Part shown: in pieces, positions 18,767-24,136 of the stretch
How the letters are laid out: each line of letters opens with the position of its first letter
How positions within the stretch are numbered: position 1 is the first letter of the stretch
Assembly (NCBI RefSeq): GCF_002080415.1
Contig: NZ_CP020474.1
Location: forward strand, 806,001 to 870,000
DNA: 64,000 nt
Direction: 5' to 3'
From: Roseovarius mucosus
GTDB lineage: Bacteria; Pseudomonadota; Alphaproteobacteria; Rhodobacterales; Rhodobacteraceae
The notes under the pieces: model-generated
Databases searched by the model: none
What the model was told of the DNA's origin: nothing
The model's input: only the letters and a program-made list of their open reading frames with translations
Translations under genes and position numbers: made by a program

Positions 18767-19984
18767 ATGCGGTTGCTTCCTGTTCTCATCGCCCTCGTGG
18801 TCTCTGTCCTTGTCTATGTTCTTGTCTTTGAGCATGACAGATTTCTTCCAGCCCCCGCCACTCAGCCGCAAACCGAAACCACATCACCAGAAACCGCCCC
18901 CCAAACGACGCAGATCATGCGCGTCGTGGCCCTGCGTTCACAAGCGCGTGAGGTCGACAGCGCCGTCGTGGTGCGCGGCAGATCCGAGGCTGACCGCATC
19001 GTCGAATTGCGCGCCGAAACCTCGGGCCTTGTCATCAACGACCCGCTGCGCAAAGGGCATATGGTGACCCAAGGCGATATCCTTTGCCGCCTTGACCCCG
19101 CCGCGCGCAACGCCGCTCTGGCCGAGGCCCAAGCCCGGCTGAGCGAATCCCAAACCCGCATCCCCGAGGCCGAGGCCCGCGCCAACGAGGCCCGCGCCCA
19201 ACTCGAAGAGGCTGAAATCAATGCCAACGCCGCCGAAAACCTTGTCGAAAGCGGCTTTGCCTCACAAACCCGCGTCGCTGCAACACGTGCCGCGGTCAGC
19301 TCGGCGCAAGCAGCGGTGCAGTCGGCCACCTCTGGCCTAGAGGCCGCGCGCGCCGGGATCGAATCCGCCCGCGCCGCCGTCGCCGCCGCCGAAACCGAGA
19401 TCGCCCGCCTCGCCATCGTCGCGCCCTTCGACGGCGTGCTCGACACCGACACCGCCGAAATCGGCAGCCTTTTGCAACCCGGCGCGCTCTGCGCCACGGT
19501 GCTGCAACTCGACCCGATCACCATGGTCGGCTTCGTTTCGGAATTGCAGGTGGCCCGCGTGGAAATGAATGCCCCTGCGACAATTCGCATGGCCTCAGGC
19601 CGCAGGGTCGAGGGGCGCGTGACCTTCGTTGCCCGCTCCGCCGATGACGTCACCCGCACCTTTCGCGTTGAAGTGACTGTGCCCAACCCGGACCTCTCGC
19701 TGCGCGACGGGGAAACCGCCGAAATCCTGATCGGTGCCGCAGGCAAACGCGCGCATCTCCTGCCGCAATCCGCGCTCACTCTTGATGACGAGGGGGCCTT
19801 GGGCCTGCGCATCGTCAACCCCGAAAGCCTTGCCCAATTCGTCCCGGTCGAGCTCTTGCGCGATACACCCTCCGGTGTCTGGCTCACCGGACTGCCAGAT
19901 AGCGCCGATGTGATCGTGATCGGACAGGATTTCGTGACCGATGGCGTGCCCGTTGACCCGGTGTTTCAGGAGTTGGGCCAATGA
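18767..19984 (+). CDS. RND efflux periplasmic adaptor (HlyD/MFP family)
   Basis: A 405-residue membrane fusion protein that links an inner-membrane RND pump to an outer-membrane channel. Residues 1-22 form an N-terminal membrane anchor or signal. A split lipoyl domain (LVINDPLRKGHMVTQGDILCRLD and IVAPFDGVLDTDTAEIGSLL) flanks a long alanine/glutamate-rich coiled-coil hairpin (about residues 105-210). A beta-barrel and a membrane-proximal domain follow. AAGGTAGATAA precedes the ATG. The stop overlaps the pump start by 4 bases (ATGA). The outer-membrane channel gene is not in the window; substrate unknown. Confidence 0.93.
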   Translation: MRLLPVLIALVVSVLVYVLVFEHDRFLPAPATQPQTETTSPETAPQTTQIMRVVALRSQAREVDSAVVVRGRSEADRIVELRAETSGLVINDPLRKGHMVTQGDILCRLDPAARNAALAEAQARLSESQTRIPEAEARANEARAQLEEAEINANAAENLVESGFASQTRVAATRAAVSSAQAAVQSATSGLEAARAGIESARAAVAAAETEIARLAIVAPFDGVLDTDTAEIGSLLQPGALCATVLQLDPITMVGFVSELQVARVEMNAPATIRMASGRRVEGRVTFVARSADDVTRTFRVEVTVPNPDLSLRDGETAEILIGAAGKRAHLLPQSALTLDDEGALGLRIVNPESLAQFVPVELLRDTPSGVWLTGLPDSADVIVIGQDFVTDGVPVDPVFQELGQ

Positions 19985-22900
19985 CCGGAATCGTCGATTG
20001 GGCCGCCACCCGCGCCCGGATGGTTTTGGCCTTCATCGTGCTCTCGGTCTTGGCAGGCACGCTGGCCTATGTCGGCCTGCCCAAAGAGGGCGAGCCTGAC
20101 ATCGAGGTGCCCGCCCTCTTCATCTCGGTCCCCTTCCCCGGCATCTCCGCCGAGGATAGCGAAAAACTGCTCGTCAAAGTGATGGAGACCGAGCTGAGCG
20201 ATCTGGACGGTCTGAAGAAAATGACCGGCACCGCTGCTGAAAACTATGGCGGCGTGGCGCTCGAATTCGAATTCGGCTGGGACAAGACCAAGACCCTCGC
20301 CGATGTGCGCGACGCAATGGACACCGCCGAGGCCGATTTCCCCGACGGCGCTGAAAAATACACCCTCAACGAAGTAAATTTCAGCGAATTCCCGATCATC
20401 ATCGTCAACCTCTCCGGCCCGGTGCCGGAACGCACCATGTCGCGCCTCGCCAATGACCTGCAAGACACGCTCGAAGGGCTGGAACCCGTGCTCGAGGCTG
20501 GGATCGCGGGCAATCGCGAAGAGATGCTCGAGGTTATCATCGACCCGCTCCGCCTTGAGGCATATAACGTCACGGCGCTGGATCTGATCAACGTGGTGCA
20601 GAACAACAACCAATTGATCGCAGCCGGTGAAGTCGACACAAGCCAAGGCACTTTCGCGGTCAAAATCCCCTCGTCCTTCGAAGATACCAGCGATTTCTAC
20701 AACCTTCCGGTCAAGACCAATGGCGACCGCATCGTGCGGCTTGGCGATCTGGCCACCATAAACCTCACCTTCGAGGATCGGCTAGGCACCGCGCGGTTCA
20801 ATGGCGAGACCACCGTCGCGCTCCAAGTGGTCAAGCGCAAAGGTTTCAACATCATCGAGACCGCAGACCTCGTGCGCGCCGCCGTCGCCGAGGCGGAAAA
20901 GACATGGCCCGAGGATTTACAGGTCGCAGTCAGCGTTGGCACCTCCAACGATCAATCCAGCACGGTCGCCTCGATGGTCAGCCAGCTTGAGGGCTCGGTT
21001 CTGACCGCCATTGCCTTGGTTATGATCGTCACGCTGGCGGCCTTGGGCATCCGTCCTGCACTGCTGGTGGGCTTTGCGATACCAACCTCCTTTCTGCTCT
21101 GCTTTGCCCTTCTCGCCGTCATGGGTGTCGCGGTCTCGAATATCGTGATGTTCGGTCTCATCCTCGCGGTTGGCATGCTTGTGGATGGTGCCATCGTCGT
21201 GGTGGAATATGCAGACAAGCGGATTGCCGATGGCGAAGGCCCGATGCACGCCTATGTGGGTGCCGCCAAGCGGATGTTCTGGCCCGTGGTCAGTTCAACC
21301 GCGACCACGCTCTGTGCTTTTCTGCCGATGCTCTTCTGGCCCGGTATTCCGGGGCAATTCATGGGCATGCTGCCCGTTACACTGATTTTCGTGCTCTCTG
21401 CATCGCTCTTGGTGGCGCTCGTCTATTTGCCCGTGCTGGGCGGCGTGACCGGGCGGCTGGAACGCTGGTTCAACGCCCGCACCGATCAGATTGCGGGCGG
21501 TTTCTGGCTCTGGCATGTGCTGCTTCTGCCGCTGGCAATCGGTGCGGCGCTTCTGGCCGGCCAATTGGCCCCCACCCTGCTGAACGAAGTGCGCGCGCAA
21601 TTTTCAGCCATGGACGGCACGCAAATCCTTGGCTCAGTCATACCGGTGTTGACCACGGTCTTTGGCCTCTTGCTTGGCGTGTCACTTCTTGTGGCGGTAG
21701 GGCTGTCGGGGGTGGTCGCCACGCTTCTGGCGCTTTTGGCCATCCCGCGCCGTTTTGGCAATCTCCTGCACGTCGCGCGGCAACGCTGGCTGCCCCCGCG
21801 CCGCGAACGGGTCCGGGGCGGCTATCACCGCTCGGCCTTTGGCTGGGTGATCCACGCCATCGCGGGCAATCCGGTGATGCCGCTGGTGGCCTTTGGCGCG
21901 ATTTTTGTGCTCGTGGGCTCTGTGCTCATGTTCTACATCAACAACAACAATGGCACCGAATTCTTTGTCGATAGCGAACCCGAGCAAGGCATCGTCTATG
22001 TGCGCGGGCGCGGCAATCTCTCGATTGATCAAAAGGATCAGTTGGTCCAGCAGGTCGAGGATATCATCCGCGCCCATCCGGGCATCCAGACCGCCTTTGC
22101 TTTTGCTGGGGATGGCGGACTTGATACCAACACCGGTGGCGCACAGCCCCCACGCGACACGATCGGTCAGATACAATTCGAAACCATCGCCTGGGAGGAT
22201 CGCCCCCAGACGCACGAGACATGGTTCACCATTCCCCTGATCAACCTTGCCGTATCGCGCGACGTGGTGGCGGCAGACTTTGACGGCGATGCGGTGATTG
22301 CGGAACTGAGCGCCGAACTGGAGCAAATTCCCGGCATCAAGTTTGAGGTTCTTGCCCAATCCCGTGGCCCCGCTTCGGCCAAGCCGGTGCACCTGCGCCT
22401 CAAAAGTGACAATTGGGACGATCTCATCGCCTTTACCGAAGTGGCGCGACAGAAATTTGACGAAACCGAAGGCCTGCGCCAGATCGAAGATACCTTGCCG
22501 CTGCCCGGCATTGATTGGCAGATCGACGTTGATGTCGAAAAGGCCGGGCGTTTTGGCGCCGACGTGGCAACCGTTGGGGCGATGGTGCAGCTTGTGACAC
22601 GCGGTATCCTGCTCGACACGATGCGCGTGGACAGCAGCGACGAAGAAATCGAGATCCGCGTCCGCCTGCCCGACCAAGACCGCGTGCTCTCAACCCTCGA
22701 CAGCCTCAAGGTGCGCACCGATGACGGACTGGTTCCACTTTCGAATTTCGTCAGCCGCAAACCGGTCAAACAGCTGGCCCAGATCGACCGTGTCGATCAG
22801 ACCCGCTTTTTCGACATCAAGGCGGCAGTTGAGGACGGGTTATTTCGTAAGGAATCGGCCACAGATGTTACAGATCGTAAGGTGCCCATCACCGCAAACG

Positions 22901-23754
22901 AGCGCATCGCGCTCCTGACTGAGTGGCTCGATTCCGGCGTTCTGCCCCCCGGTATCAGCTATGAATGGACCGGCGATGCCGAGGATGAGGCCGAATCCGG
23001 CGCGTTCCTGCAAAAGGCCTTCGCCGGGGCGCTTGGCCTGATGTTCATCATCCTCTTGGCGCAATTCAACAGTGTTTACAACGCAGTGCTAGTGCTTTTG
23101 GCGGTCGTGCTCTCAACAACCGGCGTGCTGATCGGGATGCTGGTGATGGATCAGCCGTTTTCGATCATCATGACGGGCACCGGCATCGTGGCCCTCGCGG
23201 GGATCGTGGTGAACAACAACATTGTTTTGATTGATACTTATCAGGAATACGCCCGCTACATGCCCCAGATCGAGGCCATCACCCGCACCGCGCAGGATCG
23301 CATCCGGCCCGTTCTTTTGACTACGATCACCACCATGGCGGGCCTCGCACCGATGATGTTCGGGCTAAGCCTTGACTTTGTGAATGGTGGCTATGCCTTT
23401 GATAGTCCAACAGCTTTGTGGTGGAAGCAGCTTGCCACCGCCGTGGTTTTCGGCCTCGGAATCGCAACCGTACTAACGCTGGTCTTTACCCCCGCGATGT
23501 TGGCGTTGCGGGTGTGGCTGGGCACCTACGCGCTCTGGGGCGCGCGCCTCTTGGCCAAGCTTTCGATGGGTCGCTCCAGCCGCGCCGCTCAGGATTGGGC
23601 CCTCGCCCACACCGCAAACCGCCTCGCACACGCTGAAATTGTCTGGCCCGACGAAAATCAAACCGTGCCAGCAAACCCAACCCAACCTGCTGAAAAAAGT
23701 ACAAAAACACCGGATTCCATAGGCCAAGATTCGCCTCTCCGCGCGGCGGAGTGA
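19981..23754 (+). CDS. RND family efflux permease with enlarged central region
   Basis: Inner-membrane proton-driven pump, 1257 residues against roughly 1020-1060 for ordinary RND permeases. TM1, the large periplasmic loop, and the TM4 motif GMLVDGAIVVVEYADKR (residues 398-414, one relay Asp at 402 followed by Gly) are clear. TM7 begins near 631. The excess sits between TM6 and TM7 (about 495-625) and contains additional hydrophobic stretches at about 508-530 and 549-588. The second half has TMs around 1030-1200 with GIVVNNNIVLIDTYQEY. It is co-translated with the adaptor. Drug versus other substrate cannot be decided. Confidence 0.93.
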   Translation: MTGIVDWAATRARMVLAFIVLSVLAGTLAYVGLPKEGEPDIEVPALFISVPFPGISAEDSEKLLVKVMETELSDLDGLKKMTGTAAENYGGVALEFEFGWDKTKTLADVRDAMDTAEADFPDGAEKYTLNEVNFSEFPIIIVNLSGPVPERTMSRLANDLQDTLEGLEPVLEAGIAGNREEMLEVIIDPLRLEAYNVTALDLINVVQNNNQLIAAGEVDTSQGTFAVKIPSSFEDTSDFYNLPVKTNGDRIVRLGDLATINLTFEDRLGTARFNGETTVALQVVKRKGFNIIETADLVRAAVAEAEKTWPEDLQVAVSVGTSNDQSSTVASMVSQLEGSVLTAIALVMIVTLAALGIRPALLVGFAIPTSFLLCFALLAVMGVAVSNIVMFGLILAVGMLVDGAIVVVEYADKRIADGEGPMHAYVGAAKRMFWPVVSSTATTLCAFLPMLFWPGIPGQFMGMLPVTLIFVLSASLLVALVYLPVLGGVTGRLERWFNARTDQIAGGFWLWHVLLLPLAIGAALLAGQLAPTLLNEVRAQFSAMDGTQILGSVIPVLTTVFGLLLGVSLLVAVGLSGVVATLLALLAIPRRFGNLLHVARQRWLPPRRERVRGGYHRSAFGWVIHAIAGNPVMPLVAFGAIFVLVGSVLMFYINNNNGTEFFVDSEPEQGIVYVRGRGNLSIDQKDQLVQQVEDIIRAHPGIQTAFAFAGDGGLDTNTGGAQPPRDTIGQIQFETIAWEDRPQTHETWFTIPLINLAVSRDVVAADFDGDAVIAELSAELEQIPGIKFEVLAQSRGPASAKPVHLRLKSDNWDDLIAFTEVARQKFDETEGLRQIEDTLPLPGIDWQIDVDVEKAGRFGADVATVGAMVQLVTRGILLDTMRVDSSDEEIEIRVRLPDQDRVLSTLDSLKVRTDDGLVPLSNFVSRKPVKQLAQIDRVDQTRFFDIKAAVEDGLFRKESATDVTDRKVPITANERIALLTEWLDSGVLPPGISYEWTGDAEDEAESGAFLQKAFAGALGLMFIILLAQFNSVYNAVLVLLAVVLSTTGVLIGMLVMDQPFSIIMTGTGIVALAGIVVNNNIVLIDTYQEYARYMPQIEAITRTAQDRIRPVLLTTITTMAGLAPMMFGLSLDFVNGGYAFDSPTALWWKQLATAVVFGLGIATVLTLVFTPAMLALRVWLGTYALWGARLLAKLSMGRSSRAAQDWALAHTANRLAHAEIVWPDENQTVPANPTQPAEKSTKTPDSIGQDSPLRAAE

Positions 23755-23962
23755 TTCTGTTGAAGATGTGAGTTCGCCCCTGTAGCCCGCAGGAAGATTG
23801 CCCGATGTTTCAGCATCTTGGCCTCTAATCCGGAAACAAAGCGCCCTGTAGACCCGGTTCGTTTCCAAATATATGACTCGACCGGCACGAAGCTTGAAAT
23901 GTGTCCGAAATCTGGCATATCTAAGGTCAGAATTTGAACACATGGTAATACGGAGACGACTG

Positions 23963-24136
23963 ATGTTTGATTGGTTCTGGAGTGGCTGGTATGGTGGAAC
24001 CACGTCGAGCGGTGGCTCGACATCGACGTCCTCCGTGCCGGAAATGGACGCTGCAAGTGGCACATTGGCCATCGCAGTCGTTCTCGCGGCCCTTGTCCTT
24101 GCTTGGGAAATCAAACGGCGTCGCGCGCGGAACTGA
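23963..24136 (+). CDS. VPEID-CTERM-type sorting domain mini-protein, 57 aa
   Basis: Predicted substrate of the adjacent exosortase E. The start at 23963 has GGAGA 6 bases upstream. The protein has three parts: an aromatic and glycine N-terminus (MFDWFWSGWYGG), a Ser/Thr/Gly stretch ending at residue 24, and the tripartite sorting signal from residue 25, namely motif VPEMD, a hydrophobic helix (about 32-46) and a basic tail ending KRRRARN. VPEMD is a one-residue variant of the family motif VPEID. There is no N-terminal signal peptide, so positive-inside topology places the N-terminus outside. It is convergent with xrtE, whose stop lies 9 bases away. Assignment is strong from motif plus neighbour. 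Confidence 0.85.
   Translation: MFDWFWSGWYGGTTSSGGSTSTSSVPEMDAASGTLAIAVVLAALVLAWEIKRRRARN

Follow-up and report, generated by a model that had tools for sequence, protein, structure and literature searches.

The VPEID-CTERM domain (TIGR04161) and exosortase E (XrtE, TIGR04162) are already known, and precursors of this type appear to consist of a signal peptide (where one is present), an often aromatic head, a flexible Gly/Ser/Thr linker, the motif VPE[IM]D, a helix and an Arg/Lys tail. PEP-CTERM proteins, the partners of the exosortase EpsH, carry a tripartite C-terminal signal (short motif, helix and basic tail) and are described as occurring several to a genome, with a median of eight; the same account states, with data not shown there, that 97% of them have a signal peptide after re-analysis of start sites (Haft, 2006; PMC1569441). 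Archaeosortase A, which acts on the PGF-CTERM proteins of archaea, is a studied relative in which lipid attachment has been demonstrated (PMC7157517). The myxosortase MrtX is described as a CPBP protease that cuts C-terminal sorting tags, its MYXO-CTERM substrates having a tripartite C-terminal signal, an invariant Cys and N-terminal signal peptides for export, and that description mentions no fusion to an exosortase (PMC11980579).

In the current study, we describe a locus of Roseovarius mucosus, contained in a stretch of 64,000 nucleotides referred to here as the window, that shares features with these systems. It shares with VPEID-CTERM/XrtE pairs the sorting domain, the adjoining exosortase-CPBP fusion and an aromatic and Gly/Ser/Thr-rich mini-body, and it differs in that the signal-peptide codons of the mini-protein are gone, as they are in 27 of 113 substrates compared (one more is apparently frameshifted); substrates without a signal peptide are the variant reported here. 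The C-terminal signal and the exosortase partner recall PEP-CTERM/EpsH, although this genome offers one tiny substrate that lacks a signal peptide. By analogy with archaeosortase A, cleavage near the motif may be followed by attachment of a new C-terminal moiety, a lipid in the archaeal case; the likeness to MrtX lies in the CPBP-type C-terminal half of XrtE. A search of a collection of open-access papers found no work on VPEID-CTERM, or on exosortase E/XrtE with the meaning used here (three uses of the letters that were listed are unrelated). Among the matches listed for PEP-CTERM proteins lacking a signal peptide, of which PMC1569441 is one, none concerned exosortase E; signal-peptide-less exosortase substrates may have been noted elsewhere in the literature.

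We consider it probable that the mini-gene encodes a dedicated XrtE substrate that has lost its signal-peptide codons, that its C-terminal signal inserts it into the membrane N-out, and that XrtE cuts off, and probably transfers, an aromatic peptide of about 27 residues. The VPEID-CTERM family offers a natural minimal substrate, in most cases a single one next to its enzyme in each genome, alongside matched relatives that bear a signal peptide, and makes it testable whether a C-terminal sorting signal alone can insert and orient a substrate. What is added to the processed C terminus also becomes testable, because a product this short could be read whole by mass spectrometry. There is a warning as well: correcting start sites until a signal peptide appears, as reported for PEP-CTERM proteins (PMC1569441), is unsafe for proteins such as these.

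The Mini-Gene and Its Partner Enzyme

The mini-gene (Table 1) encodes MFDWFWSGWYGGTTSSGGSTSTSS-VPEMD-AASGTLAIAVVLAALVLAWEI-KRRRARN, 57 residues in all, of which 24 precede VPEMD. Residues 25–55 match the whole TIGR04161 profile (positions 1–31 of 31) with 56.9 bits (1.5e-15), above the curated cut-off of 33 bits, and a search of the mini-protein with PF07589 (PEP-CTERM) gave no match. The preliminary description of this DNA, made from its letters, had proposed a 57-codon gene with a ribosome binding site, some 24 residues ahead of VPEMD, an aromatic and Ser/Thr/Gly-rich N terminus, and a helix and KRRRARN tail behind the motif; all of this is borne out by the translation, the GGAGA element, the TIGR04161 match and a dN/dS of about 0.15. 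Of the 12 Roseovarius copies, 11 have GGAGA ahead of the start and the remaining one, L036, has GGGGGA; protein length in the window's clade is 54–61 residues. Across the 12 signal-peptide-less Roseovarius genes, dN/dS (Nei-Gojobori) is 0.147 for the whole gene, 0.23 for the N-tail, 0.34 for the linker and 0.044 from VPEMD to the end, ratios that are rough because synonymous sites are near saturation; Trp4 and Phe5 are invariant. A chance open reading frame or a relic is rejected in view of dN/dS, the conserved ribosome site and the pairing with XrtE, and the 57-codon mini-gene is thereby confirmed as real.

Table 1. Features of the mini-gene locus, in window coordinates.
Feature	Position	Strand	Basis
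VPEID-CTERM mini-protein, 57 aa, without signal peptide, exosortase E substrate type	23963..24136	+	TIGR04161, 56.9 bits
N-tail of 24 residues, with the aromatic head MFDWFWSGWY followed by a Gly/Ser/Thr linker; zero Lys/Arg	23963..24034	+	dN/dS 0.23
VPEMD motif, predicted XrtE recognition/cleavage site	24035..24049	+	Translation, TIGR04161
Hydrophobic helix AASGTLAIAVVLAALVLAWEI	24050..24112	+	Translation, hydropathy/charge comparison
KRRRARN basic C-tail, predicted cytoplasmic	24113..24133	+	Translation
GGAGA ribosome binding site	23952..23956	+	Sequence and Roseovarius copies
Promoter-like CTTGAA-17 nt-CATATC	23893..23921	+	Alignment; promoter read by eye
Dyad GGAAACAA-N20-CGTTTCC, upstream of mini-gene	23832..23866	+	Alignment of 12 Roseovarius copies
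xrtE, exosortase E fused to CPBP (Rce1-like) intramembrane protease, 534 aa	24146..25750	-	TIGR04162, 545 bits; PF09721 and PF02517
RND adaptor and permease (1257 aa) pair, upstream of mini-gene	18767-23754		

Upstream of the gene, the CTTGAA half of the promoter-like element is conserved in the alignment of the signal-peptide-less Roseovarius clade. The left half of the dyad is exact in 11 of 12 copies and the right half, CGTTTCC, in seven; its exact pattern occurs once in the whole genome, so no regulon is seen.

The partner gene, xrtE, lies tail-to-tail with the mini-gene across a gap of 9 bp. Its product matches TIGR04162 over its full length (profile 4–516 of 516), and C226, R274, H295, E449, E450, R454 and H484 are kept in 93 of 93 XrtE sequences, H514 in 92 of 93. 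We take Cys226, Arg274 and His295 to be residues of the exosortase catalytic type, and Glu449, Glu450, Arg454, His484 and His514 to form the EExxxR/H/H pattern of CPBP proteases; the full-length match together with both sets of residues places the enzyme in exosortase E. No PDB entry is related to XrtE by sequence at E up to 1. Apart from the mini-gene/xrtE pair, no neighboring gene cluster is found in more than 35 of 81 loci. The commonest neighbors are the RND permease (beside xrtE in 35 of the 81) and adaptor (33), whose recurrence is taken as shared ancestry of the site and not as a functional hint.

Pairing of Substrate and Enzyme

The R. mucosus genome (three contigs, 4.38 Mb) contains one VPEID-CTERM match and one exosortase, XrtE, and no PEP-CTERM match over the cut-off (two weaker matches both fall under it). 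Among 84 Roseovarius genomes, XrtE is over the cut-off in 24, and every one of these carries a single VPEID-CTERM match at E up to 0.001 (in G297 it scores under the family cut-off). A 25th VPEID genome (G356) has XrtE fragments at contig ends, and G365 has a partial XrtE under the cut-off and no VPEID match. In the Rhodobacteraceae-level sample, XrtE is over the cut-off in 34 of 295 genomes and VPEID-CTERM in 31 of 394 (41 at E up to 0.001). There the pairing is imperfect: 31 of the 34 XrtE genomes have a VPEID match at E up to 0.001, the exceptions being G007 and G017, which are listed with none, and G141, which is absent from the matches, and in G034 the two genes are far apart. In 73 of 80 named loci the two genes stand tail-to-tail no more than 300 nt apart, a set that leans towards the window because it comprises the best 80 of 163 relatives; of the rest, five are arranged otherwise or escaped the rule, and two have no substrate in the stretch. 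As is usual for VPEID-CTERM proteins, the mini-protein has exosortase E in the same genome and adjacent to it, and the proposal of an xrtE-linked VPEID-CTERM protein without a signal peptide stands, given the TIGR04161 match and an xrtE 9 bp away.

R. gaetbuli (L040/L117) and G315 (L178) have an interrupted xrtE (by a stop in G308, into several fragments in G315) next to an intact mini-gene; the enzyme may therefore be dispensable. Interruptions of this kind, together with L048/L125, in which an apparent frameshift leaves no in-frame signal peptide, are what would be expected if signal-peptide-less copies were decaying relics of a vanishing system. We regard that reading as very unlikely, given a dN/dS of 0.15 over 12 genes whose upstream elements, ribosome site and start are conserved, a single long XrtE frame in every one of the 23 signal-peptide-less rows in the tree described below, and persistence of such forms across several species (Roseovarius, the Marivita group and Natronohydrobacter).

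Substrates With and Without a Signal Peptide

A profile of VPEID tails run over six frames of the collected loci yielded the 113 distinct substrates, of which 85 have a signal peptide by hydropathy; the frameshifted one belongs to the L048 group. Signal peptides were called by a rule of our own (best 11-residue run without D/E/K/R/N/Q) applied to no more than 75 residues ahead of VPEID, which means that substrates with much longer bodies may have been overlooked or placed in the wrong group. The cut was shifted from 1.5 to 0.9 after the values had been seen, because they form two groups (up to 0.80, and 0.94 or more) and the nine substrates at 0.94–1.5 all have an x-AQ type site; the third L010/L051 paralogue is borderline at 0.80. 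The 85 include some without xrtE alongside in the examined stretch, and their signal-peptidase sites are rule-based guesses, visibly off in L059, L069 and L073. The signal-peptide-less forms comprise 14 from Roseovarius (the window, L032–L042, L045 and L178), five from Marivita and two metagenome-assembled genomes (MAGs) beside it (L079, L093, L097, L100 and L103), three neighboring paralogues of L010/L051, four from Natronohydrobacter (L074, L083, L084 and L098) and one from a Rhodobacter MAG (L076). Within the 25 Roseovarius genomes with a VPEID match, 14 substrates lack a signal peptide, 10 have one and one is frameshifted. By the hydropathy rule the mini-protein has no N-terminal signal peptide of the PEP-CTERM kind, an element that the TIGR04161 domain does not include.

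After subtraction of the signal peptide, the relatives that bear one are about as small. With the frameshifted L048/L125/L169 substrate left out of the counts, the tail before VPEID has a median of 24 residues (5–59) in the 85 predicted mature forms and of 23 (20–32) in the 27 without a signal peptide. When the latter are set against the 54 signal-peptide-bearing substrates with tails of at least 20 residues, the aromatic share is 0.32 versus 0.29 in the first 15 residues and 0.004 versus 0.04 beyond them, the Gly/Ser/Thr share beyond the first 15 is 0.70 versus 0.63, and Trp occurs within the first 15 in 26 of 27 versus 49 of 54; in the 31 shorter tails of the 85, the aromatic head is often missing. 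For example, L043 reads ...MASAQ|SYSWWDSWFNWGSGSS...VPEID with a signal peptide, and L036 reads MWNWFFGGYYGGGTSGG...TEMD without one. Only the signal peptide, and no large domain, has therefore been lost, and loss of a larger body is rejected, since the relatives have none. The preliminary description had suggested comparing the lengths and N termini of VPEID-CTERM proteins; that comparison upholds the missing signal peptide but not a substrate "reduced" from a sizeable surface domain.

Several loci depart from the usual layout. In L010/L051 (three places in L010, 3057-4040), three signal-peptide-less VPEID paralogues with differing N-tails, one of them with VPEIA, stand by one xrtE, and a fourth paralogue with a signal peptide lies elsewhere in that genome (L140). 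In L016/L111, an open frame of 242 residues next to xrtE contains the VPEID motif three times, resembling neighboring substrates that were fused or read through. The VPEID gene of L048/L125 has no signal peptide in frame with its sorting signal, although its neighbors on the tree carry one.

Search for a Hidden Upstream Signal Peptide

A signal peptide might still be present but hidden, through a start further upstream that has escaped annotation, a different reading frame or an event at the RNA level. The window's frame is indeed open for 37 codons upstream of the mini-gene start, and three close relatives (L032, L033 and L039) have a stretch well ahead of the start that reads as a hydrophobic run (LLIV...), which is in frame in L033 and L039 but falls in a different frame in L032. 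Nevertheless, those 37 codons contain no hydrophobic stretch in the window, and the run in L033 and L039 cannot be joined to the start by plain translation because in-frame stops fall 6 and 1 codons before it; nor do all 12 Roseovarius copies have a hydrophobic run at one shared place upstream. Four near relatives (L032, L034, L039 and L041) have an in-frame stop 0–1 codons ahead of the same start, and 16 of the 27 signal-peptide-less copies have one within 14 codons upstream; in all 27 the start is 20–32 codons before VPEID. The DNA between permease and VPEID is, moreover, about 100 nt shorter than in signal-peptide-bearing relatives. On the stops, the missing hydrophobic run and the shortened DNA, we reject this explanation as extremely unlikely. 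Neither result that the preliminary description named as fatal to its proposal, an upstream start with a signal peptide in clade relatives or a longer body since lost, was encountered.

Loss of the Signal-Peptide Codons

Where the RND permease is the neighbor, its stop codon served as a fixed anchor for distances. From that stop to the VPEID codon the median is 279 nt in signal-peptide-less genes (n = 17; L038 and two of three L051 copies left out) versus 385 nt in those with a signal peptide (n = 16), p 1.1e-6, and from start codon to VPEID it is 24 versus 51 codons. The leader between permease stop and start is about equal in Roseovarius, at 203–215 nt in 11 genes without and 206–233 nt in four with a signal peptide (exceptions: L045, 251 nt, and L038, 890 nt), and over all genera it differs somewhat, at 209 versus 227.5 nt (p 0.0013), with 144–147 nt in Marivita. 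Both p values count related genes as if they were independent, and a rule determined the choice of starts. In an alignment of 10 permease-anchored genes, a gap covers the signal-peptide codons between the start and the aromatic head. As far as sequence comparison can tell, about 27 codons that once separated the start codon from the head have been removed, and the start, head, linker and sorting signal have stayed in place.

On a tree of 93 XrtE sequences (IQ-TREE quick search), the signal-peptide-less state needs five changes, and starred branches force four of these. A FastTree built earlier from 142 rows, duplicates included, gave six. The 93 rows exclude L020, L024–L027, L029, L030 and L110 (seven with a signal peptide, one without a substrate in the stretch), as well as short loci from L131 on, second window copies, and L040 and others without one long XrtE frame. 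A single origin of all 23 signal-peptide-less rows is rejected (AU p 3.9e-5), as is a clade uniting Roseovarius, the Marivita group and L051 (AU p 1.7e-5). L045 could share one event with the main Roseovarius clade (AU p 0.549), as could L076 with Natronohydrobacter (AU p 0.35); because neither can be separated from its group, we claim at least three origins and not five. The tree is unrooted, and loss is the simpler direction because signal-peptide-bearing rows are the majority around each group. Thus, the signal peptide appears to have been lost at least three times (five on the best tree), separately in the Roseovarius clade, the Marivita group and Natronohydrobacter.

Proposed Topology and Membrane Insertion

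The charge difference across the helix (C-side minus N-side) is +3 to +8 in the signal-peptide-less substrates, the C-side being more positive in 27 of 27; it does not single them out, because substrates with a signal peptide show it too (+2 to +12). N-out insertion by the sole helix, as the preliminary description proposed, would fit this pattern. The N-tail is free of Lys/Arg in 17 of 27 signal-peptide-less forms (10 of 27 have some) versus 25 of 85 with a signal peptide, a depletion that is as expected for passage by YidC and that, with only four to five independent contrasts, has no significance and is inseparable from ancestry. Higher helix hydrophobicity in the signal-peptide-less forms, which lone insertion might predict, was not significant (p 0.13 and 0.40).

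Like the mini-protein, the Pf3 coat protein is a very small single-helix protein, and a review describes YidC as passing the short N-tails of such proteins without Sec, with Pf3 coat as an example (PMC9360617); unlike the mini-protein it is no sortase substrate, and homology is not claimed.

From these comparisons we infer a topology and an insertase for the mini-protein. Its C-terminal helix would act as a reverse signal-anchor whose basic tail is kept in the cytoplasm, and its short, Lys/Arg-poor N-tail would cross the membrane without a signal peptide, most simply via YidC as in Pf3 coat. The resulting N-out precursor would be the same as the one that signal peptidase leaves in signal-peptide-bearing relatives.

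The mini-protein might, instead, be a non-translocated membrane peptide that binds or regulates XrtE as a decoy, inhibitor or assembly factor. Such a role would agree with the missing signal peptide, and the pairing with XrtE would suit a regulator too. However, VPEMD, helix and basic tail are the most conserved part of the protein (dN/dS 0.04) and still score over the TIGR04161 cut-off, the positive-inside rule puts the KRRR tail inside and the N-tail outside, and the aromatic head and linker are kept as in mature relatives, as would be expected if the same outside product were needed. XrtE also keeps its catalytic-type residues in each of the 23 tree rows that lack a signal peptide. We think a regulator unlikely.

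Possible Processing and Fate of the Peptide

For a mini-protein that is a substrate, cleavage, transfer and function may be sketched from the relatives of its enzyme. Both halves of XrtE have relatives in sorting, in that archaeosortase A cuts and lipidates (PMC7157517) and a CPBP myxosortase cuts C-terminal tags (PMC11980579), as far as these sources describe them. XrtE (Cys226/Arg274/His295) would cut at VPEMD or close to it, probably with a contribution of the fused CPBP domain to processing. The resulting peptide of about 27 residues would consist of an aromatic head joined to a flexible linker, and its most likely fate is transfer to a lipid or glycan at the outer face of the membrane, as archaeosortase A does with a lipid. 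The preliminary description had considered a secreted peptide, a glycosylated cell-surface unit or a scaffold, any of which the product may be.

Release of the peptide after the XrtE cut, without transfer to lipid or glycan, would make it a secreted signal or a membrane-active peptide. The pairing of one enzyme with one tiny precursor and the fusion of a CPBP protease to the exosortase speak for release, as does the fact that no exopolysaccharide genes were recognized by eye among the conserved neighbors of the window's clade. Against it, exopolysaccharide genes flank XrtE in four of the seven plasmid loci examined (they are absent in one and less clear in two), and archaeosortase A is described as coupling cutting to lipid attachment (PMC7157517). 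Release thus seems rather improbable.

A broader and still tentative possibility is that XrtE and its partner constitute not a protein-sorting system but a one-enzyme, one-precursor peptide maker, whose aromatic, Gly/Ser/Thr-rich product of about 27 residues, whether free or linked to lipid or glycan, would act on the surface or between cells. Agr-type systems, which mature a peptide, provide the analogy. If this were so, the loss of the signal peptide at least three times would mean that the sorting signal alone suffices for export.

Beside some plasmid copies of xrtE and its tiny substrate, a larger protein is encoded upstream (L192, 3133-6102; L193, 4148-6169; L194, 3134-6031; L191, 5105-6541). 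These proteins, annotated as SdrD B-like or hypothetical, have similar C-terminal ends, running from QPF[IV]... up to DCL, and three of them end in DCLC.
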